Shown here in pieces: positions 4,799 to 33,108 of a DNA stretch of 42,628 nucleotides. This stretch comes from Coemansia sp. RSA 922 (taxonomy: Eukaryota > Kickxellomycota > Kickxellomycetes > Kickxellales > Kickxellaceae), in contig JANBQS010000062.1 in NCBI GenBank assembly GCA_027577415.1, forward strand, positions 1-42,628. The letters run 5' to 3'. Positions within the stretch are counted from its first letter, which is position 1. Each line of letters opens with the position of its first letter. A program made the position numbers and the translations under genes. The notes below the pieces were generated by a model, which was given only the letters and a program-made list of their open reading frames with translations, did not search any database and had not been told where the DNA came from.

Positions 4799-5389
4799 CT
4801 AGTTCCTGCCGGCGTTCTGCTGTCCCTGCTGCAGACCATCCTTGAAGCCATCCTTGTATCCGGCCGAGTACTGGTTGCTGCCGCTGCTGGATCCACCCTG
4901 CTCTCTCGCCTGGTTCTTCCTGTCCTCCATGCGAGCGGCGAACATAGGATCGTTGGCTTTACGCACGGCCATTCTAGCGTTGAACTGGATGGCATCAGGC
5001 TGGTTCTTGCGGGCAAAGTTGGCGTTCAAAGATCTGCCGTTGAAAACAGAGCCATCGAGCGAGGCAATAGCTTCGGAGCAGCGCTTGACAACATCCTCAA
5101 CCTCGGCCTCAATGGGGGCTGGCAGCGAGGCCAGCTCCTCAATGGTGGAGGGAAGATCGCCACTGTAGAACTTCACAAAGGCAATAGCGTACTCATCTCC
5201 GGGACGCTTGGGCGTGAACTGGTACTCGTAGACGGGACCATACTTGCTGAGGCGATCAGCCAGCTCGCTCTCGGTTGTGTTGAGAGGCAGGTTCCTGACA
5301 TACATAACAGAGCTAGCCAAGTGGCGGCTCTGAGTGGCCTGCGAGAGGCGCTGAGTAGCAACAGTGCGGGCAATAGCGTTACGGAACAT
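4799..5389 (-). CDS. Mitochondrial RRM-like protein with four-tetrad Gly tail (family member A)
   Basis: 196-aa protein of unknown function. The ATG at 5389 opens a basic presequence (MFRNAIARTVATQRLSQATQ), so a mitochondrial location is inferred. An RRM-like domain follows: RNP2-like VMYVRN at 28-33, RNP1-like EYAIAFVKF at 66-74, then an insertion of about 25 residues after beta-3 (78-100) before helix 2 and a final strand near 119-126. A linker rich in Arg, Gln, Gly and Ser leads to a tail at 174-189 (4870-4823) made of YSAG, YKDG, FKDG, LQQG. The tail and the RRM insertion recur in the neighbour at 5667-6245 and in the protein at 32011-32541; the tail alone recurs at 32776-33108. Intronless. 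RNA binding is inferred from the fold only. Confidence 0.88.
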   Translation of the reverse strand: MFRNAIARTVATQRLSQATQSRHLASSVMYVRNLPLNTTESELADRLSKYGPVYEYQFTPKRPGDEYAIAFVKFYSGDLPSTIEELASLPAPIEAEVEDVVKRCSEAIASLDGSVFNGRSLNANFARKNQPDAIQFNARMAVRKANDPMFAARMEDRKNQAREQGGSSSGSNQYSAGYKDGFKDGLQQGQQNAGRN

Positions 5390-5666
5390 GGCTGTATATG
5401 TGTTTTTCTGAGCTAGATTCAGACCCTTCTCGCGAATAAATAAAAAAAGAAAAAGCAAAAGAAATGAAGCAAAGTTTTGAGATAACGCAAACACAAGAGA
5501 AACAAAATCGAGAATGCACTAGGCAAGCATTACGAAAATGCACTGAAATATTTTCATCTGGATCAAGCATGGTGATCAACTCGGTAATCCAGATTGGGCC
5601 AATATCGATTGTGCTGGGTAGCCTTTGCTCAGTTCTAACTCGCTTCTCGATTTTATTGTACTTTAT
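5390..5666. promoter_or_regulatory. Shared divergent promoter of RRM-tail genes A and B
   Basis: A 277-bp interval lies between the two divergent start codons. Because the two genes encode related proteins, co-expression from this single interval is a reasonable inference. The sequence is A/T-rich with no clear TATA box. Confidence 0.55.
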
Positions 5667-6245
5667 ATGTTTGCACACTTGTTGACTCGGCATACCGCAG
5701 GAGTATCGCGTCGGGCGACTCGGCGCTTTGCCTGCCTGGCGGTCAGAGTGGACTACGGCACGCTGCACACTTCTATGGACGACTTGCGCGGCGTGTTTGA
5801 GCGTGTGGGCAGCGTGTGGGATGTCTTGCCTATAGAGTCAAAGGCACCAGGGCGAATCCTAAAGTCAGCCGTTGTACGGTACTACGTAGGCGAGTTCACG
5901 CCAGGCAGCACACCCGATGCAGCGCCGCTGTTGCCGCCGCCAACGGCGGATGAGATTAGCGCAGTAAAGGTGATAGTTCGTAAAGCTCTTGCTGAGCTCA
6001 ACTTGTTTGAACTCAATGGAAAGAAGCTCAGAGTACGCGAGTTCCAGATAGACGACCCGAATCAGCTCCACGAGTGGTACGAGGACAAACAAGCCGAGCA
6101 GGATATTGCAAGCCAGCGAGTGAAACATGAGATCTTCCCAACCAGCCCGTTCCATAGTCCTGCGCAAAAAGGCGACGACTACCGGCAGGGATTCTTGGCT
6201 GGTTTTAACTTGGGCATGAAGGATGGCTCTAAATACCGGTCTTGA
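5667..6245 (+). CDS. Mitochondrial RRM-like protein with four-tetrad Gly tail (family member B)
   Basis: 192-aa protein of unknown function, head-to-head with its relative at 4799-5389. The ATG at 5667 gives a strongly basic presequence (MFAHLLTRHTAGVSRRATRR). The RRM is degenerate: the RNP2-like strand is LAVRVDYG (24-31) and the RNP1-like strand KSAVVRYYVG (66-75), which has lost most RNA-contacting aromatics. The insertion after beta-3 (about 77-100) contains TADEI, also present in the protein at 32011-32541 (ATADEI), a good sign of common descent. The tail at 172-187 (6180-6227) reads YRQG, FLAG, FNLG, MKDG. Intronless; its stop lies 133 bp from the stop of the convergent TPX2-like gene. 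Confidence 0.85.
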   Translation: MFAHLLTRHTAGVSRRATRRFACLAVRVDYGTLHTSMDDLRGVFERVGSVWDVLPIESKAPGRILKSAVVRYYVGEFTPGSTPDAAPLLPPPTADEISAVKVIVRKALAELNLFELNGKKLRVREFQIDDPNQLHEWYEDKQAEQDIASQRVKHEIFPTSPFHSPAQKGDDYRQGFLAGFNLGMKDGSKYRS

Positions 6246-6378
6246 GCGCAAATGTATAGACAGCATGATATGTTCGGTATGAAGTAAACAGAATTAGTAT
6301 AAAAATGATAATCGAAAGAGTGTGCGCCCATCCGCAGTAGTAGTAGCAACTAACTAGTAAATAAAAGGACGATGATAC

Positions 6379-8428
6379 CTAGTGCGTCGGAGTTGTTGGC
6401 GTTACCGACCGCTGGCGGGAGCGGATGTTCCACTGCGGTGTCTTTGGCACGGTGAGTGGACGGTCCGAGGGCTTGATCACAAGCTGCTTGTAGTGGCGGA
6501 CCGGCTGAGCCTTGTGGACAAGGATCTTGCGGAGGCGCTTGATCTCCTCTTCTTCGCGGCGCTCCTCCTCCAGCCGCTTCCGAGCCAAAACCTCTTCACG
6601 GATGCGCTCGCGCTCCATGCGGTCCTCGTCGTAGGCGCGGCGCTCCTCGCTTCGCAGCTCGGTTTTCAGCAGAATCTCCTCGATGGCAGTCAGCGGGATC
6701 GCCGATGGCTGAGGCACAAATGGCTGGTCAATGGACGGCGGGATGGGCCGTGCCTTGAACTCCATGCGCTCGCGCTTGCGCTGCTCCAATTCTTCCAGGC
6801 GCTCGCGCAACTGCCGCTGGTACGCATCGCCCCGCGTGTCGGTCTGCAGGTGAAAGGGCGACACGTGGAGCTCGACTGCCTGCCGCTTGGGCTTCTTGGG
6901 CGTGGGGAACGCTGGCAGTGGGTTGGCGCGGAACTGCCGCAGGGCCTCCTCTTCCGCCTTGAGCCTTGCAATATCCTCGCGCAGCTTAAGCAGGTGCCGC
7001 TCGGCCACGGCGTCACTGCGGAATGTGAACGGCTGGGGCACAGTGCGCTTGGGCGGCGAAAAGTGAGGGAGAACGGGAGCTGCGAGGTTAACCTTTGGCT
7101 TTGCGACGGGCTTTGCCTCCAGCACTGTCTCAGCTACTGTCTCGGCGACCTCTCGCCGAACACGCTTGGGCTTTGCAAACTGCGGCGTCATGGGCATGGT
7201 GAGCTTTGGCTTCTTTGCCAGCGCTTTCTTGGGCGGAGTCGACACATCGCCGCCACTGACTGGGTGGTTTTCCTGTTCCTCTTTGTCAGCATCGTCAGCT
7301 TTTCCCATAGACTTGCGCTTGGACGTTAGCTTGGAAACCAGATGGTCCTGTGCCTTCTTGCTCAGCTTGGCATCTTGCTTGGTTGCTGGCACACTTCCCA
7401 CCTCAGTCTGTGCGACGCTACGCACGGGCTTGGACTCGTGGAAGTGGAATGGCTTTGGCACTGTCAGGCCAGCTGCAGCATCTTGCGAAAGCCGCCGGTT
7501 GATCGACTTTGCTATGACCTCGGCAATTGCTTGCTGGTTGGCCTTATCGCGCTTCTTCATGGATAGTCGCCGCGCTGCAACTTTGGTCGGCTGCATAAAC
7601 CGGCTGCCTTCAATCGGGATAGTCAGCGTTTTGGCGGCAGCTGCCTGCGCCGTCCTCTTGACTACTTTCCCCGTGCCATTCGCCGCCGCTACTGGCCGTT
7701 GCCTACCGATGGAGGGCTGTGATATTGTCTTGACAGGCCTCACATCGTCCTTAGTGGCGATGTTTGTGCTCTTCGCGTCGTCGGTAACTGCTGTACTATC
7801 GCTGCTATCTTTGCGATCATCGGCGTTGGCGTCTTCGTTATCGGGGAATGAGTAGGCACGCTTCCAATTGTTAAACTCAATCTCCTCGTCAGTATCAAGC
7901 TCGGCGTCCTTGACTCTCTGCGATCTGTTAGATTTGGGCGTCATCTTCGAGGCAGAATCGCTGTCAATCGTCAGTCGACCGTCCGCTTGGACCACGATGC
8001 GCGAGGGCGACAACGACGGCCTATTTGGCAGTAAGCTCTCCTTCCTATCGGGCGAGAGGAAGGATATTTCACTCAGACGCGCACTCTTTCTCTTTCGAGA
8101 TATAGCTGGCGTTGGGTGTGCATAGTCTACATAAAAAGTAAATGAACGCTTGTGTTTAGCAATAGATAAAGCGCAACAAAGTCGTGTCAGTCGCGTTAAT
8201 GCCCACTATACGCCTGAACTTACCAAACCACTTGTCTGCCTTCTGTCCTGGTGTTTTGGCATTGGCAAAGTCGTAATACATGGGCGCCTCAAAGTCCCAC
8301 ATGCCGCGCGAGTCGCCATCGCTATCATTGTCTTTATCTTCGTCGACTGGCTTCCGTGTGCTGCTCCGCTTGGGCGTATGTGGCATGGATAGCCTGCTTC
8401 CTCGAGACGACGGCCTGGCTTTTGTCAT
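6379..8428 (-). CDS. TPX2-like spindle assembly / Aurora-activating protein
   Basis: TPX2 proteins bind microtubules, activate Aurora A and promote spindle assembly. Two exons, 8428-8224 and 8126-6379 (donor GTAAGT, acceptor TGTAG), give 650 aa. The N-terminus carries the TPX2-like motif MWDFEAPMYYDFAN followed by ADKWF, resembling the Aurora-binding segment. The middle is basic with repeated short motifs of the type VPxPFxF (VPKPFHFHE, VPQPFTFRS) and FKARPIP. The C-terminus is a charged helix ending EEEIKRLRKILVHKAQPVRHY, which closely fits the family's C-terminal signature. Many Lys/Arg clusters suggest a nuclear or spindle location. Orthologues are absent from model yeasts. The upstream region has paired forkhead-type sites. 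The long opposite-strand frame is a shadow. Confidence 0.85.
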
Positions 8429-8720
8429 TTGCTTTCAAAAATAAAATGATTAGCGTGAGTCAGATGTGCGATTTCAATAAATCAAAAATAAAAAAGTGGG
8501 GAACACGAGTGAGAGACAAAAGAAGCGGATGCTCGGGTCAGGCGTCTCCTGTTTACCATTCACACCCTGTGTTTACCATTATTTTTTGCATTAGCGGATT
8601 TTGTTGATGCGGATCAAATCAACCTCAAAGCGGATATACTGCTTGTCCGCAGCCCCTATAAACACCCCAAACACACACTTCCTTCCTCTTCGCCTTTCTG
8701 CTTTATTCACCTTTACGACA
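8429..8720. promoter_or_regulatory. Divergent promoter of TPX2-like and F-box-like genes
   Basis: This 292-bp divergent promoter serves a mitotic-type gene on the minus strand and an F-box-like gene on the plus strand. A TATAAA at 8657-8662, 59 bp before the plus-strand ATG, fits the F-box-like gene. Two forkhead-type sites lie in the half nearer the TPX2-like gene. Confidence 0.6.
8550..8576 (-). promoter_or_regulatory. Paired forkhead-type sites (GTAAACA x2)
   Basis: TGTTTAC occurs at 8550-8556 and again at 8570-8576 within a repeated GTTTACCATT. On the minus strand both read GTAAACA, the core bound by mitotic forkhead factors in other fungi. They are exactly 20 bp apart, about two helical turns, and lie 122-148 bp upstream of the TPX2-like start. 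Function is inferred. Confidence 0.5.
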
Positions 8721-10400
8721 ATGCAAACTCTATCGCCGTTCCAGTTACTTCCGCCTCATGTTGTCGAGCTGGTGGTGAACCATATCGCTGGTACTAGACG
8801 CAGGACTTATTCTGGCTCTGACGACCCCGAAGAGGAAGCCGAGTTGCTGATGCCCCTTTTGTGGGTCTGCCACAATTTTCGTGTCGTTGTATACTCGCGC
8901 TTCTGCCGTGGCTATGAATTGTGTCTGAACAGCGGCAATGACACTGTACATTCAACGCGATCCTCGTGGCCAGATTGCCTTGAGCAAGCCGACTATCAGA
9001 CACAGCACCTGGCCAAGGACCTTCAAATCGAGGTAGATATTTGGAGTATCTACTCGGGCAAGTCGTCTGAGCTGCTTTCTCGCGGACCCAACACCGACCT
9101 TGTATTCCCACTCGTTCGCTCGCTTACGTTCTTTTTTGTCCCGTCGTTGAAGAAGAAACAGAAAACAACGACTAGCGTGCAAGACATCGAGGCCAACATC
9201 ACAGCATTTGTGCAGCGGATTAAGCGTATGGTGCCCATGGCAAACGAAGTCAAGGTGGAGACCTCTGCCTATTCTCATGACGTACACCCAAACGCCTGCC
9301 CTCATTTTGTCAGCCTGGTTTCACAGCTCTATCGGCTTACCGACAGTGTTGTACGCAGCTCTCTCAACTGCGCTGTACCATTTTGGCAGCAGCACGACCT
9401 AGTCCAAAGCATTGCCTACTCTGGCCATCAGGATTACAACAGCAGCGAGTCAATTATGCAGCTAGTGCGGCGTAATGCGTTGGTGTTACGGACTCTAGAC
9501 ATTGCATTGGAGGCATCTGACATAACTGGGCTCATCTGGGATGACAACAGCAGCTATGTTTGCTATCCGCGCTTGCACAGACTGAATTTGACAATGCTTT
9601 CAAACTGCACCGACTTAAAACGACCGACGTTTACCGGCGCCACACCATTTCCTGCGTTACAGTGGCTACAAATCAGCGACCAGTACCCGTTTGGCGATGA
9701 TACGCCCTTCAGAGGCAACGCAGGCACCCTCGAAAATTTGAAAATCAACATCGACGCTGAATCAGCTGTAGCATTTAGCCGGTGCCATGTGTTTACGCCA
9801 GACAGCCACCCAAAGCTACAGTGTGTCATGCTTGGGCTTATGCCAAACTTAGTGTCGGAACACTTTGGCTCGGATGTTGCGTGTATGCGGTTTATACTAG
9901 ATATCGCACCCAATGCATCTGTGCGAGAGATCATGGGCATTGACTGCGATCAAGGACTGTCGGCTGCTCTTTCCTTACTTTACGACCACGCACGAATCCA
10001 GGTCCTGCTGCTACCCAACACAGACATTAGTCTCTGGGATTCCATCACCTTGGTAAAGTCGCTTCCTGTTCTCTCGGATTTGCGTACCATGGCCCCAGCC
10101 TTGGGCTCGATTCCTACTGGCACCACTTTGCCCAAGCTTTCTGTGTATGTGCCATCGACGTACGGTACAATTAGTGAGCGGTTTCGGTGCTGGCACCTAA
10201 ATATGAAACGGGGAGGCACGCCTAAGGACGCTGCGAGATGTGTGCTGTTACTAGCTCTGATATGTCCCAGCTTTGATTTTGTTCTGCCACCAGTAGCTAG
10301 ACACTCGGCTTTCACATCACAAATGAAAAAGCTCGTAGCCACGAATGCATTCAAGCAGCACGAGCCTCGCTTGCAACGCCTGCTGTTTGATAGATTATAA
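8721..10400 (+). CDS. F-box-like protein of a presumed lineage-expanded family
   Basis: 559-aa intronless protein without a precise known function. It begins MQTLSPFQLLPPHVVELVVN, an F-box-like helix (Leu-Pro followed by Val/Ile-rich turns); the rest has an irregular leucine-rich pattern, as in substrate receptors of SCF ubiquitin ligases, but no canonical LRR could be aligned by eye. I recall similar N-termini in many predicted Coemansia proteins, which supports both the family call and the organism guess. The ATG at 8721 is preceded by a TATA box 59 bp upstream and a pyrimidine-rich leader. An upstream extension of the frame starts without an ATG and is rejected. The SCF role is inference; the ORF itself is secure. 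Confidence 0.85.
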   Translation: MQTLSPFQLLPPHVVELVVNHIAGTRRRTYSGSDDPEEEAELLMPLLWVCHNFRVVVYSRFCRGYELCLNSGNDTVHSTRSSWPDCLEQADYQTQHLAKDLQIEVDIWSIYSGKSSELLSRGPNTDLVFPLVRSLTFFFVPSLKKKQKTTTSVQDIEANITAFVQRIKRMVPMANEVKVETSAYSHDVHPNACPHFVSLVSQLYRLTDSVVRSSLNCAVPFWQQHDLVQSIAYSGHQDYNSSESIMQLVRRNALVLRTLDIALEASDITGLIWDDNSSYVCYPRLHRLNLTMLSNCTDLKRPTFTGATPFPALQWLQISDQYPFGDDTPFRGNAGTLENLKINIDAESAVAFSRCHVFTPDSHPKLQCVMLGLMPNLVSEHFGSDVACMRFILDIAPNASVREIMGIDCDQGLSAALSLLYDHARIQVLLLPNTDISLWDSITLVKSLPVLSDLRTMAPALGSIPTGTTLPKLSVYVPSTYGTISERFRCWHLNMKRGGTPKDAARCVLLLALICPSFDFVLPPVARHSAFTSQMKKLVATNAFKQHEPRLQRLLFDRL

Positions 10401-10906
10401 AGTTAGCTATATATTTCCGATACATACACCTTATTTAACAGCGCTCATGTTTGAGAATGAAAGCAGCTTTGCTAAGACAATGCCGGGTAGGTTAATTAGC
10501 AGCGTGTTGATTACACAGCGGTGAGAATAAAGAATGTTCGACGAACTATCTGACAATGTACTGATACAAATTTATGCCAACCCACATACAAGCTGCATAT
10601 TTGGCGATTTGCAATGCTCTAGAGGACAACGTCTTTTAGTCGCTACAAAAAAATTAAAAGTGATGATTAATGTAAAAATATGCAGCTTGATGCACATACT
10701 CATTTTACATTGTCCATACACTTGTGACAATATCAGATTAGGTTTGGTATTGCTAGCCATTCAAATTCCCACACAAATGGCTTGCCCCATGCCAGAACGC
10801 TATAAAACTACAACACTTGGCACGGCCTCTCCAGTTGATCATCACCAACATCTTCTACAACCACCAAAGCAATTCTAGATATATTCACCAGCACCTTTGT
10901 TTTACA
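10401..10906. other. Intergenic region with TATA box for the HD-like gene
   Basis: A/T-rich 506-bp gap. TATAAA at 10801-10806 lies 101 bp before the next ATG and is followed by a CA- and A-rich leader. The small frames in the gap have no recognisable content. Confidence 0.55.
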
Positions 10907-11461
10907 ATGTCCACTACTATGACTCCCGAGCAGCGCGTATCCACGGTATTCCAGACACTTGAAAGGGCTAAAAATGTGGATGTCACTATTGGTCTTACAA
11001 CGCTGCTGGATAGTGCCCTCGTAGTTGCAAATGTTGCCAAGCATATGAGCGCTGACGAAGAAACCATTTTGGCCGCCCTCTTGCAAGATATCGGCCTCTT
11101 CTGCCCACCACCAGAGAATTGGAGCGACAACCCGAGTCAGAGTGCAAGCGATATTGGCGCTGATTACTTGCGCAAGTTCGGGTTCCCCAAGAAGACGTGT
11201 GAGCTGATCAAGTCTGAAATATTGGTCAAGCGCTACATTGTGACAACTGATTTTGTGTACTTTAAAGTATTTAAAGACTCTCCACTGGCGGGTAAATGGA
11301 TAGCCCCGCTTTCGCCTGAAGAGATGAGCGAGCTCGAGAAAGACCCGCTCTTCCATCAGAAGGTACAAATTAGGAAATGGAAAGCTGGCATTTGGAATCC
11401 TGAGCTTCCACCTCCCTTGGACACGTACCGTGATATGGCTATCAGAAATATACAAATCTAG
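10907..11461 (+). CDS. HD-fold protein related to PhnZ/TmpB-type oxygenases, metal site lost
   Basis: 184-aa protein. The pattern matches the small HD family that includes the di-iron oxygenases PhnZ and TmpB: ILAALLQDIG (54-63) where active members have ALLHDIGH; ASDIGADYLRKFGFP (80-94) for HEExGAxYLxxxFP; VKRYIVTTDFVYF (107-119) for AKRYLCxTDPxYY; then LSPEEMSELEKDPL (135-148) and RKWKAG for RxWDDxAK. The metal-binding histidines appear replaced: HD is Q60-D61, the His of HEE is missing, His before KRY is Glu, and the final WDD is WKA. It should therefore be catalytically dead in the known chemistry, perhaps binding a ligand or partner. The ATG at 10907 follows a TATA box. An AATAAA signal at 11512-11517 follows the stop. 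Confidence 0.8.
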   Translation: MSTTMTPEQRVSTVFQTLERAKNVDVTIGLTTLLDSALVVANVAKHMSADEETILAALLQDIGLFCPPPENWSDNPSQSASDIGADYLRKFGFPKKTCELIKSEILVKRYIVTTDFVYFKVFKDSPLAGKWIAPLSPEEMSELEKDPLFHQKVQIRKWKAGIWNPELPPPLDTYRDMAIRNIQI

Positions 11462-12040
11462 TCGTTGTATTTGAGCTCTTGACTCTGAGAGCAACTCAGC
11501 GTCTTACACCAAATAAATTTATCATAAGAACATTGCTCCAACCACATTTGTGAGGCTTACGCCTTAAAAACTTTAAGAACATTTTAAATAGACATGCGGA
11601 TTTTAACATAACAACCCCAGCCACAATCAAATATTTTGTACAGCATCGCGAATTCGATTAGACGGTTTGGTTTCATTTCATTAGGATGGTTTTGCAACCC
11701 CCCATCTCACGCTCTGGCATAATGGAGACTCTTTATGCCAGAAGCACCCTAACACAGCTATAACTATGTGGAAAAAATAATGTCATATTTGTTGATATTG
11801 GTAGTTGTGGCTTGAGTGGCCTCTTGTGTAAGCGCGTTGTCAGTAGCTACACATCAACAGTCAGATTTTAAATGAACAACCGATGCGTCCCACTAATAGT
11901 TGCCTGTAGAATCCTAACAAGTAGTATATGTGGTTTTATCGCGTTATTAACGTATGAATAAGGGTTTTTTGGCGCAAAATATATCAAGAGCTCCTTAGAA
12001 GCTGACAAGAGCGAGAAAGCGAAACAAGTGTATGAGAATA
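11462..12040. other. A/T-rich gap before the mariner element
   Basis: 579 bp with a polyadenylation-like AATAAA at 11512-11517 just after the HD-like gene. The remainder shows no coding signal, repeat or RNA gene that I can support. It ends with the TA target duplication (12039-12040) of the mariner element. Confidence 0.6.
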
Positions 12041-12066
12041 TACAGTCAAACTTTCAATGAGTCTGG
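12041..12066 (+). repeat. Left terminal inverted repeat of mariner element
   Basis: Begins TACAGTCAAACTTT; it matches the reverse complement of 13291-13316 except at positions 15, 20 and 23. Preceded by the TA duplication. Confidence 0.88.
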
Positions 12067-12180
12067 ATTCTCAAAACCTAGAACACCTATGCCCCCCTAG
12101 TCCTTGCCTTTTTCAAGATCGCTGACAACCACCACCTTGTGTACTCCTACTTCACTTCGATACTTCTCCTATTTATAAAT

Positions 12181-13258
12181 ATGCCTCTTAAAAGAATTGA
12201 CTTCTCACAGAATTCAACCCCATGATTCCAGGGTGAAATTCAGTCTCACCTTTGCGTTTTTATTCTGGACAGTTTCGCTCAGAGTCTTTCTTTGGATGAT
12301 GCTCTCTCTTATATTCATGGTCTAGGACCTGGTGTGAGCGTTTATAAGAACACCATTAGATACTGGTATAAGCGCTTTGAACAGGGAAATTTTAACCTTG
12401 AAGATCGCCCCAAATCAGGCAGAATTCTGAACTACGATAATGACGATTTGACTGAAATATTTCACGACGAAATAGTCGAGAACCCTAGGATTACTTGGGA
12501 GAAGCTAGCGACCATTGGGCACTGTAGTATTGTCAGGGTACATCACATCGTAACTGAGCGGCTTGGGTACAAACGTTGTATGGACCATATGATACCTCAT
12601 GTATTGACACCTGACCAAATCGAAGGAAGGCTCGATTTCTGCCACAACTTCATAGACAAGTATACCAACGCCTCTCCACAGACATTCGCCAACCTTGTGA
12701 CAGGCGACGAGACCTATTTATCTTTCCATACACCGCCAATACATAGTGAACGTCATGCATTTACAGGATATGACGTGCCCAGAGCTGAATTAGTATGGCC
12801 AAGTAAGGTCCTATGTGGATTCTTTGTGTTGCAAAAGGGATGTCTCCTTGAGCACTACCTTCGATGTGGAGAGTATATGAATCAAACCATTTTTGGGGAA
12901 AAGTTATTTCACAAGTCGTCAAAGTTTGGAAGTCTATAGCTGGAAACCACTGTCCTTCAAGAATACACATGCACTTCGACAACGCACAGCCACACAATCT
13001 CCCTAGGGACATGGGCCCGCCGAAGTTCCATTTACTCGAGGTGCCTCCATACTCTCCAGATCTGTCACCCTGCGGCTTTTTATTCTTTCCTTGGATGAAA
13101 AGCCAGATGCCAAATGATGTTGAGACAAAGGAAGAATTGGTTAAATCTGCTTGAACAAAGTGGTCTCTCATGTTCCACTGGAGTACCATACGACTCTTGT
13201 TGATGAATGGTTAAAGCGGTGCAGGAAGGTTATTGCTGCAGATGGACAGTATATTTAA
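12181..13258 (+). pseudogene. Mariner transposase, frameshifted
   Basis: Cut-and-paste transposase relic. A possible N-terminal ATG at 12181 is followed by an in-frame TGA at 12223. The helix-turn-helix region is readable (VYKNTIRYWYKRFEQGNF then LEDRPKSGR), typical of mariner. The first catalytic Asp is in VTGDETY (about 12700). After a run GGGGAAAA near 12897-12904 the frame shifts by one base and continues with HFDNAQPHN (second Asp, about 12979) and PPYSPDLSP (third Asp, about 13060). Only about 26 residues separate the second and third Asp instead of about 34, suggesting an internal deletion. A further frameshift near 13150 precedes the tail ending at the stop 13256-13258. At least one stop and two shifts make it non-functional. 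Confidence 0.85.
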
Positions 13259-13290
13259 AATGGACTTTGGGTTTAGGAATAAATATTGAT

Positions 13291-13316
13291 CCAAACACAT
13301 TTAAAGTTTGACTGTA
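13291..13316 (-). repeat. Right terminal inverted repeat of mariner element
   Basis: Reverse complement begins TACAGTCAAACTTT as in the left repeat. Followed by the TA duplication at 13317-13318. Confidence 0.88.
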
Positions 13317-13318
13317 TA

Positions 13319-13927
13319 ATCCAATCAGGCAGTGGTGGCAATTTGAGCACGCTGGAAGCCTCTATGCGCCTTTCACAACAAAACTTAAAACAGATCCCAT
13401 CAATGCTATTTTCAACAACAATGTTATATTTGCTACTCACTACGCCTGGGCCTATATTTCAGAAACAGGAAAGCGAATGCAGGGGGACGAATTAGTAGCG
13501 GCGCAAAGCCTCTTTGCATTTATTCAAGTGCGTAGCACTGCTCCAAGGCATTTCCTGAGCCACTTTCAGGACACATCAGTACTGATCTGGCATGGTGGCA
13601 CTGCGACAAACAAGAGACAAGCAATAAATAAGAGCACAACATTCGTACACGGCAAAATTCAGCCACCACCTTTCTGCTTTCAGGCAGATAAAACAAGCCT
13701 CAATGTCAGGGCATGAATTTTAAACAATCAAAGCACAACATTGGATGATTCACACACCACGCAATTATTTGCATGACAAATTTTCACATACGCCTTTGGT
13801 CTTAAAAAAAAGGTGGCGAGGAGCGCATGTATAAAGTAGCGAGTCCAAACATAGCCCAAACATATCTTTGATCTTTAGCTTGCAATACTTTTTTTACTGT
13901 TCCAATCCTTTCATTTTTATATTACTC
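13319..13927. other. Gap between mariner element and surface-protein gene
   Basis: 609 bp with no gene I can support; the small frames within have no signal or domain. A TATAAA at 13830-13835 lies 93 bp before the next ATG and is its likely promoter element. Confidence 0.55.
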
Positions 13928-14383: not shown

Positions 14384-14384
14384 T

Positions 14385-23150: not shown

Positions 23151-23163
23151 GCATTTCTATATC

Positions 23164-23169
23164 AATAAA
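23164..23169 (+). terminator. Probable poly(A) signal of coiled-coil gene
   Basis: AATAAA 13 bp after the stop codon of the gene ending at 23150. Confidence 0.5.
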
Positions 23170-24876: not shown

Positions 24877-24908
24877 ATTGGATATATTGAATATGGCCAT
24901 TGGATTTA

Positions 24909-24914
24909 AATAAA
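24909..24914 (+). terminator. Probable poly(A) signal of PDI gene
   Basis: AATAAA 33 bp after the PDI stop codon. Confidence 0.5.
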
Positions 24915-25014
24915 AACTATAGCTAAACATTACACCTGGCTCTGGAGTTGTTGAGAAGGCTGCAAACTAGGCTAGCCAGAAATGTGTGCTATTAAAAAAT
25001 GTTAGGCAAGCTTA

Positions 25015-25359
25015 TCATATATCAGCGTGCAATATAACCTCACGATCACTCCAATCAATTGGCATAAGATGACGTAAAAACGCACCCTCCTCATTGCCAA
25101 AATGGTCAATTAGCTTCACGTTCTGATTGTACCTTGAAAATTCTACCTTCTCGAACCCTGTAGGTGCGCCACTACTGTCGAAGCCTGTGGGTTTCTTCCA
25201 TGCCATGTCAAATTCTTTAGCGGTTACCTCCCGCCCAAGAGCTCTGAATAAATTAGCCACTGTACTCATATCAGTATAAGTAAAAAGGGTCTTAGTCCGG
25301 GCCCTTTTACCATCTTGAGTGACAAGAACAAGGAAGAACTGTGCTATAACAGTAGTCAT
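25015..25359 (-). CDS. Short uncharacterised protein, possibly a truncated enzyme
   Basis: 114 aa from the ATG at 25359 (MTTVIAQFFLVLVTQDGK). No family is recognised with confidence. The segment LFTYTDMSTVANLFRALGRE resembles the C-terminal part of NmrA-like Rossmann proteins, and the first residues could be the start of the same fold with the middle deleted, but this is speculative. A TATA box on the same strand at 25484-25479 lies 120 bp upstream and the leader is pyrimidine-rich, so the promoter looks real. It could be a young gene, a truncated copy or a relic. Confidence 0.45.
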   Translation of the reverse strand: MTTVIAQFFLVLVTQDGKRARTKTLFTYTDMSTVANLFRALGREVTAKEFDMAWKKPTGFDSSGAPTGFEKVEFSRYNQNVKLIDHFGNEEGAFLRHLMPIDWSDREVILHADI

Positions 25360-26029
25360 ATTTAAATGCAAAAATGGAGCAACTGTTGTATGTTAAGAAT
25401 AAAAGCCAAAATGTGTGATGGAGTAAAGAAAAAGTATGTGTTGGAGTAAAATTGAGGGAAGGGCGGGAGGCAGCGCGTTTTATAACAGAATTGCCACCAA
25501 GAGGGCACAACCAATTCTCCGTTACCTCTCCACTAGGGTATGTTTCAGTCACAGCTTGTCCTCCATGGAATGTTCTTGTAGCCGGCAAATCTCGCTTGCT
25601 AAAAGGGGTTTGGCCCTTGTCTTTGGGATGCCGTTTTGTGTAATGGGGTACTTGTCAGAGAGTTGCAGTCTTTCTTTTGCCAGGTTGAGGCAATCATGAC
25701 CAATACATTCCGCACGCTCAGTGAGTGACATGTTGGTGAAGTCAGTGCTTCCAGAGCTGTGTAAACCTTCTTCGACTACGTCCGTATATTTACTGTGGCT
25801 AGCACTGCTGGTTTAAGGCAAATAGGCTGTATGTGCGGTTAACAGTATTTACGTTTGCAAACGGCAACATTGCATAAAATATTGGCCCATATTCGTGGGG
25901 TTGAGTTCTGCCGAGAACACACGAACTTGTCATTGCGCGCTTTCTTTTGGCCTGCGTGTGTTAGTCGTGTATTGCTTTAAAAGTTTGTATTCCTAATTTT
26001 CCAGTCGTGCAGCTCTCACTTTTCCCCAA
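25360..26029. other. Intergenic region upstream of WDR91-like gene
   Basis: 670 bp. It includes the promoter of the short minus-strand frame (TATA at 25479-25484). A minus-strand open stretch at 25549-25731 (about 60 codons, MSLTERAECIGHDCLNLAKE) has a protein-like composition but no start context or family, and may be a relic exon. No other feature was recognised. Confidence 0.4.
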
Positions 26030-27844
26030 ATGCAGCCAATTTCGCCGAGCACGGCTGACTATATACAGTCGGCCAAGGCAGGGATAGAGTCCTTAGAGTA
26101 CATTGATGACCTGATACGGGAGTACCTGCTCTTTCGAGGGTTCAAAGACACACTCAAGGCGTTGGAGGAGGATCTCGAAGGAGACCATGACAAGGGATTC
26201 CACGCAGAAAAGATTGTAGACGAACTCCTGGGTATGGCCACTGGCTTGGATGCCGACGGCTTGCTCGAGTACTGGAAGTATTTGTCGTATCGGTTCTTTT
26301 CACACTTGAGTCCAAAGTACCACCGCACGACTCGCATGTTTGAAAAGAGGCTCATTAGGCTATTCCTGGTTAGTGCCGTAAACGCCAACAAGCGGGAAAA
26401 GATTCGTCAGTTCATGGACAAGCACGGCAAGGCGCTCGGACAGCAAGGCGGAGGAGACTGGATTCCGTGGCTCGGCTTGGAGTATGTAGATGAGCCAAGT
26501 TTGCGGTCAGAGTTTGCGGCACACTTTAGCGACGACTGGCTTGTAAGCTTGAAATCAGCCTTGACAGACTTTATCCAGACGGTGTTCCCCGCTATGGCTG
26601 TGCCACGTATCATGCTATTTGACAAGGATCGGAGAGAACGCGAGGCTCTTCAGCGCAGGCTCAAAAGCTACGAGGAGCAACTTAATGGCGAGACCAAGAT
26701 CAAGGCGCTAGAGCTGAGCTGTATGTCCTCTGCTCTTGTCGAAGACCATATCGGAGGCGTGGCAGTTGCGCGGAGTCCCAATTTGAATCCCGCAGCCGCC
26801 GAGCTGGAGGCGGATAGCATTGCCGCCATCGACCAGTCACTGGGCGTTATCCAAACCTCCGAGCCTTCCAGTATGCTTAAAATCAGCCAGGAGGAAGTGT
26901 TTTTAGAGCACAACTCGGGAATCAGCTTGGCAAAGTTCTCGCCAACGGGTACGCTGATTGCAAGTTATGACGACGAGTGCATTTTGAAGATCTGGTCGCC
27001 CGACTTGACGTCGACGGCGCCCAAGTTAAAGAACGAGCTCGATTTTACGGTAAACGCAATGGCATGGGACAAAAAGCACGCGCACTTGCTCTATCTGTAT
27101 GACGATGACGGCTACTTACACACACTCAACACAAACACGAATCTTATGAGCCGGCAGTTGCTGCTTGAGCGGCGGCATCCATGGATCCAGAGTATGCAGG
27201 CTAGCTCAGCCAGCTCTACACTGCTGACGGTCTGCTCATCCAAACCTGAGGCGACGTCCGATCTTTTAGTGCATATATGGGACGCCAATGCGAATAAAAC
27301 TATCGCCTCAAAGCGCCTTTCGCCAGGTGCAGAGTCGCACGGAGTCTGCGCAGCGCTTAACCACAACGGAAACCTGGCGGCACTTGCATTCAACACGGGA
27401 CACGTACGCTTGCTTGATACGCGCATTTTGGAGACGGTGGCCTCGATAAGCACAAAGCAAAAGGGACTATGCTCAGCCGAGTTTAGTCTGGATGAAGATT
27501 CCCTGATGGTAGTCACCGAGACTGGCGGGCTGACACAGTGGTCTCTTAGGAAGGACAGCCAAATGACCGCCGAATCGAGTCTGGGCATAGGGGCTGCGGA
27601 TGGTGGACCAGTCTCTGCCGATTCGCGCTTGGACTACGAAAGGGTCGCGTTTACGCCAGACAGGGAAAACATTGTCATTGCTCCCAAGGACCAGTGCCTG
27701 GTGTTCAACGTCGATTCAGCGGCGCTCACGGACACGATGCGACGGCACAAGGGTTTGGTCTCGTGCGTCGACTTTGTTGCTGACCGCTCGCTGTCTGCTA
27801 GCGAAGACGGCACAATTCGTGTCGCACGCTACCGCAAGGTGTGA
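26030..27844 (+). CDS. WDR91-like WD40 protein, endosomal PI3P regulation
   Basis: 604 aa, intronless. Animal WDR91 (SORF-1) acts with WDR81 and Rab7 to lower PI3-kinase activity during endosome maturation. Here the N-terminus has the LisH-like family block YIDDLIREYLLFRGFKDTLK (residues 24-43), then EYWKYLSYRFFSHLSPKYH and LIRLFLVSAVNANKREKIRQ, strong matches to WDR91. A coiled coil (about 205-225) is followed by a seven-blade WD40 propeller (about 285-600), with repeats such as HNSGISLAKFSPTGTLIASY and HKGLVSCVDFVADRSLSASE. Yeasts lack a clear orthologue. The role in this organism is inferred. Confidence 0.88.
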   Translation: MQPISPSTADYIQSAKAGIESLEYIDDLIREYLLFRGFKDTLKALEEDLEGDHDKGFHAEKIVDELLGMATGLDADGLLEYWKYLSYRFFSHLSPKYHRTTRMFEKRLIRLFLVSAVNANKREKIRQFMDKHGKALGQQGGGDWIPWLGLEYVDEPSLRSEFAAHFSDDWLVSLKSALTDFIQTVFPAMAVPRIMLFDKDRREREALQRRLKSYEEQLNGETKIKALELSCMSSALVEDHIGGVAVARSPNLNPAAAELEADSIAAIDQSLGVIQTSEPSSMLKISQEEVFLEHNSGISLAKFSPTGTLIASYDDECILKIWSPDLTSTAPKLKNELDFTVNAMAWDKKHAHLLYLYDDDGYLHTLNTNTNLMSRQLLLERRHPWIQSMQASSASSTLLTVCSSKPEATSDLLVHIWDANANKTIASKRLSPGAESHGVCAALNHNGNLAALAFNTGHVRLLDTRILETVASISTKQKGLCSAEFSLDEDSLMVVTETGGLTQWSLRKDSQMTAESSLGIGAADGGPVSADSRLDYERVAFTPDRENIVIAPKDQCLVFNVDSAALTDTMRRHKGLVSCVDFVADRSLSASEDGTIRVARYRKV

Positions 27845-28133
27845 GAGCCCTTCTTCTCTTTGGCCACAAGGCACAAAGTGCATTGTAATCCCCTGCCAAG
27901 CCAAATCAGGAATATGTGTTCTTTCTTGACCAGTGACGTGCCAACAGCGCTTGCCAAGCCCACCCCTCAGAAGTGCGCGAGTATGCCTTCCCGCTTCTCT
28001 CTTCAATTGCATTCAAGCTTTTACTTTATTTTCTAAGCGCTTTTTTTTGTTACATTTATATTTTCGTACTTTACTGACGCCTTTGAGCCACATACTTTTT
28101 AGCTACAACTACTAGCAACACCACGACTACAGT

Positions 28134-30425
28134 ATGGATGAGCAACTCATCAAGACCGTAAACAAATTGCAGGATGCATTTGCCACCGTTGGCGTGCACA
28201 ACCCTGTCGACCTGCCGCAAATCGTCGTCATTGGAAGGTAAGCATGCTTTGCTGGTCCATGTGTCCAAGATGCGTGTTCCTCATGTGTAATGCATAATAG
28301 CAGGTCCTTGTCATACTAATGTGAAACACACACGCCTTTTTGTACCATTGTTACTTGTAGTCAAAGCAGCGGAAAGAGCTCAGTGCTCGAGAACATTGTC
28401 GGTCGCGATTTTTTGCCGCGCGGAACTGGTATTGTGACTCGTCGTCCGCTAGTGCTGCAGCTGATCAACCGCCCCGCAAAGTCAGCTCCCAAGGAGAATG
28501 GCGACGTCAACGAAGTGAAGGGAGAAGGCAAGTAGACGGAGAGTGCGTGGGCTATAAAGCCGAAGTGTTGCCATGCCAGATTGGTTACTAATGATGACTC
28601 TGGATATATATGCTCGATGTTTATCAGTGTAGAAAACCCTGACGAGTGGGGCGAGTTCCTGCACTTGCCAGGCAAAAAGTTCTTCAACTTTGACGAGATC
28701 CGCCAAGAGATCATTCAAGACACGGATAGGAAGACGGGCAAGAACCTGGGTATCTCGCCTGTGCCCATCAACTTGCGTATTTTTTCGCCCAACGTGCTGA
28801 CTCTGACATTGGTTGATCTGCCCGGCCTGACTAAGGTCCCCGTCGGCGACCAGCCAAAGGACATTGAGCGTCAGATCCGGGAGATGATCATGGCATACAT
28901 CACCAAGCCTAATGCCATCATCCTGGCGGTCACGGCAGCCAACACGGATCTTGCCAACTCGGACGGTCTGAAGCTGGCGCGCGATGTCGACCCAGAAGGT
29001 ACGCGAACCATTGGTGTCTTGACAAAGGTTGACCTGATGGACAAGGGCACGGATGTTATCGATATCTTGGCAGGGCGCGTTATCCCGCTGCGTATTGGCT
29101 ACGTGCCTGTTGTCAACCGTGGCCAGAAGGACATTGAGAACAAGCGGAGCATTCACTCGGCGCTGGACGCAGAGCGCAGCTTTTTCGAGAACCACGTGTC
29201 GTACCAGAACAAGGCCCAGTACTGCGGAACGCCCTTCTTGGCTCGCAAGCTAAGCGTGGTCCTCATGCACCACATCAAGGCCAACTTGCCCGAGATCAAG
29301 GCCAAGATCTCGGCGGCACTCGTAAAGTACATGAGTGAGCTCGAGCAGCTCGGCGATCCGCTGACGGACGCGGCAGGGCAGGCAGCCAACACGACGCTCA
29401 GCATTATTACCGAGTTTTGCAATGACTTCCGAAGCTCCTTGGAGGGCCAGTCGACGGATCTCTCGACATATGAGCTATACGGTGGTGCGCGAATCAACTT
29501 TGTGTTCAACGAAATCTTTTGCAATGGCATAAAGTCGATTGACCCACTGGAGCACGTCAAGGACACTGACATTCGCACGATCTTGTACAACTCGTCGGGC
29601 TCGTCGCCATCGCTGTTTGTGGACACTAACGCGTTCAAGGTCATTGTCAAGCAGCAGATCAAGCGACTAGAGGACCCCAGCCTCAGGTGTGTGACGATGG
29701 TGTACGACGAGCTTGTGCGCATTATCAACCAGCTGCTAGGCAAATCCAACTTTAGGCGCTTCCCGCAGCTCCGCGACCAGTTCAACTTGGTGGTTATCAC
29801 GTTCCTTAAGAATGCCATGATCCCGACCAACAAGCTCGTGCAGGACCTGGTCGCCATGGAGCAGTGCTACATCAACACGGCACACCCTGACTTTACCAAC
29901 GGACAGCGCGCCTTTGCCATTGTCAACGATCGCATGCATCCGCCCAAGCCCATTCAGCCTGGCGCGCCGCCCACCGGTCGTCCGTCGATGGCGATGACTG
30001 CCAACGAGCGGTCGTTGGACGACGAGATGAACCTGAACAAGGACGCCGGGTTCTTTGGCTCGTTCTGGCAGAACAAGAACAAAAAGAAGACGATGACGAT
30101 GGAGCCGCCACCACAAGTTCTCAAGGCCTCCGGCACGCTGTCTGAGCGCGAGCAGCAGGAGACCGAAGTCATCAAGCTGCTGATCCAGTCGTACTTTAAC
30201 ATTGTCAAGCGCACGGCTATCGACATGGTGCCCAAGTCGATCATGTTCAAACTGGTGTGCTTTGCCATGGATGGTCTGCAGAGGGAGCTGCTCAAGGAGC
30301 TGTATAACCCAGAGGCCCTGTTGGATCTGCTCAAGGAGAGCGAGAGCACGATTGCCCGCCGAAACGAGTGCAAGAAGATGATTGAGGCGCTCAAGAAGGC
30401 TGACATTATCGTGTCGTCCGTCTAA
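28134..30425 (+). CDS. VPS1: Dynamin-like GTPase Vps1
   Basis: Membrane-scission GTPase acting at Golgi, endosomes and peroxisomes. Exons 28134-28237, 28361-28527 and 28633-30425 give 687 aa, near yeast Vps1 (704). The P-loop GSQSSGKSS (34-42) spans the first junction, followed by switch [40 protein letters not shown], the stalk, a variable insert with [11 protein letters not shown], and the GED with [20 protein letters not shown]. The second intron is best read as GC-AG, AAG|GCAAGT to GTGTAG (28528-28632). An alternative, GTAGAC at 28532 with TATCAG at 28627, also keeps the frame but has a poor donor. Vps1 is preferred over Dnm1 because of length and the insert sequence. Confidence 0.95.
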
Positions 30426-30785
30426 AGTTTACCCCCTTTTTCAAGTGTCCTTTTTCTTAAGCTATTTCTGACCTTCCTAACGTGTCTCCTTCCTTTCAAG
30501 CATTCAATTTAATCTATTATTTTCTGCTAAAACTGTACTCTGGAGAGTTTGGGGGGTTGGGCGGTGTTCGATTGTCTCTTGGCATGTACAATGCTCTCCG
30601 AGCATGGTGTGGCTGTCGCGTAAACTCTTTTCTCTTCTGCTTATTTCCGTTTCTTTATATATATTTTTTGCATTTTACTTGTCAAATTCCCAATCTCTCA
30701 CTTTGCACTGTTTTTCAAGGGCTCGTGTGCACTTGTCTTGTTTTATTTGCCTTAACAAAGCGAGGCTATACTACTTTTTCGAGCG
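30426..30785. other. Intergenic region, VPS1 3' end and CDK promoter
   Basis: 360 bp, strongly T- and pyrimidine-rich on the plus strand. Long pyrimidine tracts upstream of the ATG are common in this window. No gene or repeat is seen. Confidence 0.55.
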
Positions 30786-31886
30786 ATGGAGGGAAACTAC
30801 CAGCGGCTCGAGCACTTGGGAGAGGGAACATATGCGACGGTTTATAAGGGCAGGTCGCCCAGGGGCGAGATTGTGGCGCTGAAGGAGATACACCTGGATC
30901 CCGAGGAGGGCGCGCCGTCGACGGCTATTCGCGAGATATCGCTGATGAAGGAGCTGGACCACGAGAACGTCGTTAAGCTCCTGGACGTGGTGCATACAGA
31001 GACCAAGCTCATGCTGGTGTTTGAGTTTATGGACAAGGACCTCAAGCGGTATATGGACGCCAATGGAAACCATGGCGCACTACCGCCGCAGACAATCAAG
31101 CTGCTCATGTACCAGCTTCTCAAGGGCATCAAGTACTGCCACGAGATGCGCGTATTGCACAGAGACCTCAAGCCGCAGAACCTGCTCATCAATGCGCGCA
31201 ACCAGCTGAAGCTGGGGGACTTTGGCCTGGCGCGTGCCGTGGGTATCCCTGTGAATACATTCTCCAACGAGGTGGTTACGCTGTGGTACCGCGCTCCAGA
31301 TGTGCTACTGGGGTCGCGCAACTACACGACCACAATTGACATCTGGTCGGCTGGGTGTATCATGGCCGAGATGTTTACTGGGCGGCCCCTTTTCGCCGGA
31401 TCGAGCAACGACGACCAGCTAATAAAGATATTCCGCATCATGGGGACGCCGTCGGAGGCTACATGGCACGGCGTATCGCAGCTCAGCAATTGGAAGAACA
31501 ACTTTCCGCCCTACCCGCCGCAGAGGTTCGAGCAGCAATTGCCCCAGATGGATCCCTATGCGATCGACTTGCTCAAGAAGCTGCTAGTGTATGACCCTAA
31601 TCTGAGATGGGAGGCGGCGCGCTGTCTGACGCACCCGTATTTCCAGGACCTGTGGCAGCCGCCCGTACCTCAGCACTCTCTGCAGATGCCCGCTCACATG
31701 CACGAGCAGCAACAGCTCCAGCAGCTCCACATGCAGCAGCAGTACCAGCACCAGCAGAACATGCGCCTTCAGCTGCAGCAACAGCAGCAGCAGCAGTACC
31801 AGCAACAACAGCACCAGCATCCGCAGTACCCGCAGGGAATGAATCCGCATCAGCAACACCCTCAAGGGCCGCCTTACCAGCAATAG
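30786..31886 (+). CDS. PHO85: Pho85/CDK5-type cyclin-dependent kinase with Q/H-rich tail
   Basis: Ser/Thr kinase activated by cyclins, controlling phosphate response, cell cycle and polarity in yeast. 366 aa, intronless. Residues 1-290 form a kinase: [12 protein letters not shown] (11-22), K33, cyclin-binding helix PSTAIRE (44-50), HRDLKPQN (125-132), DFG (145-147) and [28 protein letters not shown] is the Pho85-specific activation loop, with Ser160 in place of the Cdc2 Thr. The last 70 residues are Gln, His, Met and Pro rich (CAG/CAA runs from about 31690 to 31880), an extension not present in S. cerevisiae Pho85. The ATG at 30786 lies directly before the kinase start. Confidence 0.96.
31704..31857 (+). 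repeat. CAG/CAA-rich polyglutamine stretch
   Basis: Low-complexity CAG/CAA/CAC codons encode Q and H runs in the CDK tail, the longest being eight consecutive Gln codons at 31776-31799 (one run) and others nearby. Likely length-variable. Confidence 0.7.
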
Positions 31887-32010
31887 TCTCGATTCATATT
31901 AAATTAAATAATTAAAGCTTTGGTCTATCTTTTGACGTGTGGATCGTTCAAACGATTATTTTTTCCATCACCTTTGCAACTTTTTCTCTATCATTTTCTC
32001 GAAATCGGTC

Positions 32011-32541
32011 ATGTTTTCCATTGCTAGAAACGTTATCACACAGCGGTTTGCTACCCGCGCATATGCGGCTCGTGCAATTTACGTTGCCAATCTGAGCCCC
32101 GCGACTGACGAGACCAAGATGCGCGAAGTGTTTGGCAAGTACGGCAATATCATCGGCATGCGCTTTGGCGAGGGCAACAACTCGTACAAATACGCTCACA
32201 TTTACTTTGGCGCGGGCCAGGTACCGGAAAGCGAGACGAACGTGTTCATGTACACGCGCGATCACGAGGCCACGGCTGATGAGATCCTGGAGGTGGACAC
32301 TTCTGTGCAAAAGGCAGTGGAGGAGAACCAGTCGATTACCGTCGACGACAATCTGCTGGTGGTGCGTAGCGCGCTGTACCGTGTTGCGGACGATAAGAAG
32401 CCCGTTCGGATGGACCGCGCCCCACAGAAGGCCGCTCAGGATGTGAATGCATTCAACCGGGGCTATTTTGCTGGGTACCGCAAGGGCGTTGAGGACGGCC
32501 ACAAAATGACCAAAAATCCTAGTGGAAACGCCTCGTCGTAG
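32011..32541 (+). CDS. Mitochondrial RRM-like protein with four-tetrad Gly tail (family member C)
   Basis: 176 aa, intronless, unknown function. The ATG at 32011 starts a basic presequence (MFSIARNVITQRFATRAYAA) resembling that of the protein at 4799-5389 (both MF, Arg-rich, TQR). RRM: RNP2-like AIYVAN (22-27), RNP1-like YKYAHIYFG (59-67), then an insertion (about 68-92, including ATADEI) before helix 2, as in the two relatives at 4799-6245. A basic linker leads to the tail at 148-163 (32452-32499): FNRG, YFAG, YRKG, VEDG. Its tandem neighbour 234 bp downstream carries the same tail without the RRM. Confidence 0.88.
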   Translation: MFSIARNVITQRFATRAYAARAIYVANLSPATDETKMREVFGKYGNIIGMRFGEGNNSYKYAHIYFGAGQVPESETNVFMYTRDHEATADEILEVDTSVQKAVEENQSITVDDNLLVVRSALYRVADDKKPVRMDRAPQKAAQDVNAFNRGYFAGYRKGVEDGHKMTKNPSGNASS

Positions 32542-32775
32542 AAACTACATTGATGACATTGGTTAGCATCGAGGATTTCTACTTTTTAAATATATATACC
32601 AGCAAATTTTTCAGACTAGCATTTGCCCATATCAGCTGTTTTTCTTTCCATGGCAGACTCGTCATCTTTTTATTTTATTTTTTTGATCTGTACAGCACTT
32701 TTCGGAATACATCTTGTATATCGTTTGTATATTTTGGAGGAAATACTACTGCGGCTCTAAGCACCTGGTTTAGAC

Positions 32776-33108
32776 ATGTGGATGGCTTCAAGAAAGGTGG
32801 CGGTCGGATGGCGGATGGCCAGGCGTTGTATTGAGACAACGGGTGCTCGGAAACAACGAGCCATGTCCAGCGACAGGCGCATTGCTAGCGATGGTAACGA
32901 CAACTGTCAAAAAGCCAGTTTATCTGGTCATAACAGGGATGACAGTAAGCTTGGGGATGCAAAGGCACAGCAAGCCGAGGCAGAAATTATTGGATATGAC
33001 GCTGGGTTCCGGGACGGGTACATGGCCGGGTTTGACCATGGGCATGGGTACCTAGAGTCTATTTTGAACTCGAGAAGGAAGCAGATGCAAAAACAGACGC
33101 AGGATTAA
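32776..33108 (+). CDS. Mitochondrial protein with four-tetrad Gly tail, no RRM (family member D)
   Basis: 110 aa. The ATG at 32776 gives a basic start (MWMASRKVAVGWRMARRCIE then TTGARKQR), a plausible mitochondrial presequence. Residues 30-70 are polar and look disordered; no RRM is present. The tail at 74-89 (32995-33042) reads YDAG, FRDG, YMAG, FDHG, then HGYLESILNSRR. The shared tail and tandem placement after the RRM member at 32011-32541 indicate common descent or functional coupling. An intron joining the two into one gene seems unlikely because of the upstream stop and the new presequence. It could be a degraded copy, but the tail is perfectly kept. Confidence 0.75.
   Translation: MWMASRKVAVGWRMARRCIETTGARKQRAMSSDRRIASDGNDNCQKASLSGHNRDDSKLGDAKAQQAEAEIIGYDAGFRDGYMAGFDHGHGYLESILNSRRKQMQKQTQD

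Follow-up and report, generated by a model that had tools for sequence, protein, structure and literature searches.

A conserved aromatic GxxxG tail in a little-annotated family of candidate mitochondrial RRM proteins from Coemansia sp. RSA 922

Four tails at two loci

Four small proteins, here called A, B, C and D, are encoded at two loci in a 42,628-nucleotide stretch of DNA from the fungus Coemansia sp. RSA 922 (contig JANBQS010000062.1, positions 1 to 42,628; hereafter the window), and each carries near its C-terminus repeated aromatic-x-x-Gly tetrads that we refer to as its tail. The window is contig C62 of an assembly of 20.4 Mb in 960 contigs, and its features of interest are these:

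4799 to 5389 (stop codon included), minus strand: gene A, a 196-residue protein with a leader, an RRM, a linker and a tail (RRM_1, E 8.5e-9)
4823 to 4870, minus strand: tail of A, YSAG YKDG FKDG LQQG, its conserved core being the first three tetrads (4835-4870)
5012 to 5317, minus strand: predicted RRM fold of A (residues 25-126; AlphaFold2), in which about residues 77-93 form an insert that separates beta-3 from alpha-2
5390 to 5666, no strand assigned: 277 bp separating genes A and B, which are divergent; a possible shared promoter
5667 to 6245, plus strand: gene B, a 192-residue paralogue of A with an apparently degenerate RNA-contact surface (hhalign to the A family, RNP positions)
5730 to 6041, plus strand: predicted RRM fold of B, residues 22-125 (AlphaFold2, mean pLDDT 67; Foldseek)
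6180 to 6227, plus strand: tail of B, YRQG FLAG FNLG MKDG, with a predicted helix at residues 171-191
32011 to 32541, plus strand: gene C, a 176-residue paralogue with a canonical RNP2 (RRM_1, E 6.2e-5; hhalign to the A family)
32071 to 32370, plus strand: RRM region of C, approximate bounds from alignment to A
32452 to 32499, plus strand: tail of C, FNRG YFAG YRKG VEDG
32776 to 33108, plus strand: gene D, a 110-residue protein without an RRM, with 6 relatives and strong conservation in the tail region only
32995 to 33042, plus strand: tail of D, YDAG FRDG YMAG FDHG, with IIG before it and HGYLESI after it

The original prediction, made from the letters of this DNA, had placed four 16-residue stretches at exactly these positions, and they are indeed the sole stretches in the six frames of the window in which three aromatic-xx-Gly tetrads are followed by a hydrophobic-xx-Gly tetrad. 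The same pattern appeared in none of 60 second-order Markov shuffles of the window, and the three-tetrad core arose 1 to 8 times per 200,000 when the residues of each whole protein (A-D) were shuffled and 2 to 29 times per 200,000 when the shuffling was confined to the tail neighbourhood of 31-36 residues. Because the pattern is rare or absent in both window and protein shuffles, we take the tails to be real rather than products of chance. Two details of the earlier description have to be corrected. The fourth tetrad is not the C-terminus, since another 7 (A), 5 (B), 13 (C) or 21 (D) residues come after it, and the conserved unit is three tetrads rather than exactly four, the fourth Gly often being missing in the A family.

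The core [YF]xxG[YF]xxG[YF]xxG is found in all 40 family proteins (12/12 A, 10/10 B, 11/11 C and 7/7 D), a count that takes in the window proteins and their database relatives, partial records included, and the fourth-tetrad Gly is kept in 5/12 A, 10/10 B, 10/11 C and 7/7 D. All 40 follow the rule described for FliH-type GxxxG motifs, with Gly at every fourth residue and Tyr or Phe at x1, the first of the three positions between glycines (PMC2674601). Just 8 columns are invariant among 31 aligned A, B and C proteins (11 A, 9 B and 11 C), and 3 of these 8 are the core glycines. Mean information per column in this alignment is 2.99 bits in the core, 2.37 bits in the fourth tetrad, 2.48 bits in the N-terminal half of the RRM and 1.15 bits over the 19 residues ahead of the core. 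Within a clade x2 and x3 for the most part change little, but they differ from one clade to another; in the second tetrad they read mostly KD in A, LA or MA in B and FA or TA in C. Strong selection on the tail, as had been proposed, is well supported by a core that is retained in 40 of 40 proteins and exceeds both RRM halves in information next to a variable linker.

Three RRM paralogues and a small companion

The view that everything else in these proteins differs, and that the tail alone defines the family, does not survive comparison of whole proteins. In hhalign comparisons of family against family, A, B and C align over nearly their whole lengths (A-B, E 8.9e-16; A-C, 8.8e-14; B-C, 1.1e-10) at 18-29% identity between clades, and they share a layout of basic leader, one RRM, variable linker and tail. 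When A was the query in a six-frame search of its own genome, it recovered C (matched along residues 5-191, E 1e-4) and B (along residues 21-190, E 0.003); C as query found A and not B, and B found A and not C. Judged from these alignments, A, B and C are diverged paralogues with shared ancestry, and the near end-to-end match rules out the tail as a mark of otherwise unrelated proteins. The original prediction was thus correct about the importance of the tail but not about the remainder of the proteins, which does not simply differ. A tree of 31 proteins, from which the partial records P0008 and P0030 were left out, sets B and C apart with support of 100/99 and A weakly (58/66), and 8 of its 28 inner branches have firm support.

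The RRM of A and C is recognized by profile, both scoring above the RRM_1 (PF00076) cut-off of 20.7 bits, at 35.6 and 23.2 bits respectively. These Pfam scans were run one by one on window A-D, the D relatives and the B family; window B and D gave no match, and RRM_1 was matched by 3 of 10 B-family proteins (best E 4e-5). AlphaFold2 predicts the RRM of A confidently over residues 25-126, with block pLDDT (the model's per-residue confidence) of 83-95 across residues 21 to 130, and that of B less confidently (mean pLDDT 67), with strands and helices in the order of an RRM. Foldseek entries retrieved with the A model are mostly RRM by title, and the B model matches 117 PDB chains at E <= 0.001, the best 50 of the 117 being mostly RRM by title. 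The A family, searched by sequence against the PDB, matches varied RRM proteins, mostly in the N-terminal half of the RRM among the best 60 of 248. We therefore count A and C as RRM proteins by profile and B as a predicted one by its fold and its family's profile matches; D, for which Pfam returned no match, is not counted among them.

What distinguishes B is its RNA-contact surface, described here by the usual RNP position names. The RNP2 tyrosine with Asn-Leu after it is present in 11/11 A, 11/11 C and 0/9 B proteins, and of the two RNP1 aromatic positions one is kept in A (Phe, 11/11), the other in C (Tyr, 11/11) and neither in B. Of the three usual RNA-contact aromatics, A has two (Y30 and F71, 11/11), C has two (Tyr at RNP2-2 and RNP1-3, 11/11) and B has none (0/9). 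Because the RNP2 Tyr and the RNP1 aromatics are gone in 9 of 9 B proteins, B probably does not bind RNA in the canonical way, even though it retains its fold and tail. The pseudo-RRM of the B family also keeps clade-specific stretches, VxV[DS]YGTL, GxxWD and QLHEWY[EK]D, which could form a protein-binding face.

The N-termini had been read as fitting mitochondrial import. Their first 25 residues hold 4-5 Lys/Arg and no Asp/Glu in A, B and C, and 6 Lys/Arg and 1 Asp/Glu in D, so that the basic character stands for all four; the hydrophobic moment of the leader is high in B (0.56) and D (0.61) but low in A (0.19) and C (0.13). Import of A-D is plausible from these sequences. Of the 30 alignment rows that reach the end of the leader, all have R22 and 29 have A25, two residues that could mark a cleavage site.

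Protein D has 6 relatives in protein database searches, all from Coemansia, and 21 of the 25 invariant columns of their alignment fall in the tail block IGYDAGFRDGYxAGFDxGHxYLExI. Its leader is uncertain because the gene models of 3 of the 6 relatives begin at an inner methionine. A PDB sequence search with the D family gave 2 matches (best E 0.46) and nothing useful. One gene model, P0016 from Coemansia strain S146, fuses the D tail to the downstream C2-domain gene (window frame 33814-34257; span 32776-34257), which is probably a gene-prediction merger, with an alternative transcript as the other possibility.

Relatives and genomic setting

Besides window A there are 11 A relatives, from Coemansia, Kickxella, Dipsacomyces and Linderina; B has 9 database relatives, with Kickxella among their genera, and C has 10, with Martensiomyces among theirs. 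Kickxella, Dipsacomyces, Linderina and Martensiomyces all belong to the order Kickxellales. The closest named proteins are from Coemansia, for example from C. aciculifera and from C. pectinata, the latter at 92% along a record that is partial. As had been anticipated, the named-source matches all come from one lineage of soil fungi, the Kickxellales, in word-seeded protein searches that could miss matches outside the order, and the relatives, apart from P0033 and P0037, which have none, carry just generic record names ('hypothetical protein', 'Uncharacterized protein' or 'RRM domain-containing protein'). On this sampling the family is probably lineage-specific, and since the A, B and C clades each reach beyond Coemansia, the duplications that gave rise to them seem to predate the split of the Kickxellales genera. 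Literature searches found nothing on the A-D family.

Relatives of A and B have consecutive locus tags in four genomes (Coemansia sp. S610, RSA 2050 and BCRC 34301, and Kickxella alabastrina). D lies 3' of C in the window, and in C. furcata and Coemansia sp. RSA 2050 the tags of C and D relatives follow one another directly. The A-B pair lies about 376 tags from the C-D pair in RSA 2050, and 20 tags separate B from C in one C. aciculifera genome; because tag distances vary between genomes in this way, the linkage of A-B with C-D seen in the window is not general. Within the genome of RSA 922 itself there is a second A-B locus, on contig C310, that is 97.2% identical to the C62 copy. The two A proteins are identical, their 9 codon differences all being synonymous, and the two B proteins differ at 2 residues and 11 synonymous codons, with two differing tail codons that are synonymous. 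Such differences would be expected of alleles under purifying selection. Several other RRM matches are paired on two contigs with equal or near-equal scores, and together with the A-B doubling this suggests that the assembly holds two haplotypes or two nuclei.

Searches of the genome with whole proteins A, B, C and D and a distant C relative gave no clear further family member, the tail alone not having been searched exhaustively. Weak matches lie inside long RRM frames on C542 (E 0.08 and 1.2) and C356 (E 0.72). An RRM protein on C258, matched by the C relative P0037 (E 0.012), was rejected as a member since it has no such tail; from its sequence we take it to be the exon-junction protein Y14/RBM8A. 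Open antisense frames lie opposite A (4787-5416, plus strand, 209 codons) and C (31948-32544, minus strand, 198 codons) and are probably a by-product of codon bias. Among the neighbours, read by eye, 3426-4715 (plus strand) appears to encode a DnaJ co-chaperone and 30756-31886 (plus strand) a cyclin-dependent-type kinase with a Gln-rich end.

How the tails might act

Proteins with glycine at every fourth residue offer the nearest points of comparison. The tails of A-D are like the repeats of FliH and YscL in that Tyr or Phe comes next after the glycine, and helix pairing has been proposed for FliH (PMC2674601). According to that report, Tyr/Phe account for more than 45% of the residues at x1 of the GxxxG repeats of FliH, and GYxxGFxxG occurs at twice the expected frequency, perhaps with aromatic rings resting on the glycine backbone of the partner helix (PMC2674601). 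Because FliH repeats favour Tyr/Phe there, an aromatic after each Gly is no novelty by itself. Unlike A-D, FliH serves protein export in bacteria, in flagellar and type III secretion systems, and the profile matches of A and D are far below cut-off: NCBIfam FliH profiles match A over residues 126-192 (E 6e-4) and D over 35-90 (E 0.023), with 19.5 bits against an equivalog cut-off of 180 for A and 14.1 against 260 for D. At E <= 0.1, one FliH profile picks up 9 of 31 family members.

The suggested likeness to the deca-GX3 motif of Yae1/Lto1 (Pfam PF09811) holds for the repeat itself, which in Yae1/Lto1 joins two small proteins (PMC4523923), and fails for membership by both profile and repeat number. 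The 2015 report describes deca-GX3 as serving formation of the Yae1-Lto1 complex and as reported in no other eukaryotic protein (PMC4523923). Yae1 and Lto1 have about ten consecutive repeats in 40 residues and a role in cytosolic iron-sulfur assembly, whereas A-D have three to five glycines, three of them conserved and at most five in register. Window A-D gave no Yae1_N match at E <= 5 (cut-off 27.5 bits), and sub-threshold matches came from 1 of 6 D relatives (12.3 bits) and 2 of 10 B-family proteins (best E 0.091). With profile matches absent or below cut-off, A-D are rejected as members of either Yae1/Lto1 or FliH.

Among mitochondrial RRM proteins, the plant protein ORRM4 requires its glycine-rich domain for ORRM3 binding and for self-association (PMC5853588). 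Compared by published description, ORRM3, ORRM4 and ORRM5 are, like A-C, single-RRM paralogues with a glycine-rich C-terminal tail, and they are mitochondrial (PMC5853588). Unlike the ORRMs, A-C have a short, regular tail with helical spacing, an RRM insert between beta-3 and alpha-2 and no known editing role. SLIRP is a small animal mitochondrial single-RRM protein that is not known to carry a GxxxG tail. By membership A-C are RRM proteins and belong to neither FliH nor Yae1/Lto1 nor, as far as published descriptions go, to the ORRMs; in working principle they most resemble an ORRM-like set joined by FliH-like helices.

We favour a model, to which we give about an even chance, in which short GxxxG tail helices pair members of A-D and so gather RRMs in mitochondria. 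Under this model A, B and C are Kickxellales proteins with one RRM each that arose by ancient duplication and most likely enter mitochondria, with D as a small companion beside C. AlphaFold2 predicts a tail helix at residues 173-193 of A (pLDDT about 52-64) and 171-191 of B. Each tail would form a short amphipathic helix along which the glycines (i, i+4, i+8) line up in one ridge and the Tyr/Phe in the ridge next to it, and the glycine ridges of two tails would pack closely, with aromatic rings over the glycine backbone of the partner. The helix pairing, the choice of partners, the mitochondrial site, the RNA targets and the role of D are what we infer beyond the alignments and models. A might pair with B, as the products of a divergent gene pair, and C with D or with A or B. 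Pairing would bring several RRMs onto one mitochondrial RNA, with A and C, which retain RNA-contact residues, binding that RNA, B, which has lost them, serving as a structural subunit, and D, without an RRM, capping or regulating the assembly.

Several observations weigh against this model. The tail helices are predicted at low confidence (pLDDT about 50-65) and in monomer models only, and three conserved tetrads are short for a stable two-helix contact; the leader moments of A and C are low, and window B and C have no match to the NCBIfam FliH models. Mutation of the first two deca-GX3 glycines of Lto1 is reported to have mild effects (PMC4523923), and, as described for the ORRMs, ORRM5 with its shorter glycine-rich domain does not self-associate and the RRM alone is enough for editing by ORRM1, 3 and 4 (PMC5853588). 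The tie between D and C consists of position and a tail-only match (hhalign probability 18.7%, not significant), and because that comparison aligns the tails alone, the notion that D is a C duplicate minus its RRM is only a guess. Lastly, the pattern is not confined to the four proteins, as had been supposed: an unrelated Gln/Pro/Tyr-rich protein on contig G000:C758 (frame L019, 1483-1953, 5' end unseen; match at 11991-12059, minus strand) carries FDQGYNDGYTDGFDDG near its C-terminus, with the same (aromatic-xx-Gly)4 grammar. Because this unrelated protein has it, the tail grammar is reusable and no private mark of the A-D family. The C758 protein gave a sub-threshold match (E 0.0021) in a Yae1_N search of its own genome; a second such match, to a 94-codon frame on C540 that overlaps a longer frame, is probably chance.

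The idea, first suggested earlier, that the tail is an assembly or docking element is supported, and the sequences are compatible both with mutual binding and with a common partner. In the latter case the tails would dock into one groove of a shared mitochondrial partner, such as a PPR-like protein, the mitoribosome or an RNA-processing enzyme, for which A, B and C would compete. We consider this possible but tentative. A single receptor would hold the tail grammar near-identical across paralogues just 18-29% identical, as is seen, and a low-confidence monomer helix fits folding on binding; but the x2/x3 residues differ between clades, which suggests clade-specific partners, and long GxxxG repeats of soluble proteins are tied to helix pairing in the reports on FliH and on Yae1/Lto1 (PMC2674601; PMC4523923).

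Two other uses of the tail are improbable, and about equally so. It might lie as an amphipathic helix on the inner mitochondrial membrane and tether RRM proteins near translating mitoribosomes. Aromatics beside glycine suit interfaces, and a tail helix is predicted for both A and B, but a tether would not need invariant glycines at exact 4-residue spacing, and x2/x3 are mostly polar or charged in A. Alternatively, the tail might touch RNA or drive condensation, like the disordered glycine/aromatic-rich tails of other RNA-binding proteins, as its Gly and Tyr/Phe composition beside an RRM and the low confidence of the helix model would allow. Low-complexity tails, however, usually vary in length and order, and here core length, spacing and register are fixed in 40 proteins and the aligned tails have no RGG or GGY repeats. 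Least probable is that A, B and C are ordinary paralogues with an inherited tail of little present function and D a decaying fragment, because shared ancestry accounts for the likeness of three of the four tails but not for a core better retained than the RRM halves beside a linker that is not, for A copies on C62 and C310 whose 9 codon differences, like those in the B tail, are all synonymous, or for the 21 of 25 invariant D columns that sit in the tail block.

Pairing through the tails would, in its fullest form, amount to a lineage-specific mitochondrial RNA-binding assembly of Kickxellales, with two RRMs that bind RNA, a pseudo-RRM and a fourth chain lacking an RRM, all joined by a minimal three-tetrad aromatic GxxxG helix whose x2/x3 residues set the partners. 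We put this forward as a doubtful possibility, and if it is true, it would be a eukaryotic use of a FliH-type pairing helix outside Yae1/Lto1. What the sequences point to is a little-annotated family with a sharply conserved pairing-type helix, for which such a mechanism is plausible. The comparison defines a clear architecture for proteins known in public records under generic names only. It also provides, outside Yae1/Lto1, a natural example of the aromatic GxxxG helix in minimal form; the longer form in Yae1/Lto1 was called unique among eukaryotic proteins (PMC4523923). It could also open up the mitochondrial RNA biology of these fungi, a subject on which our literature searches found nothing.

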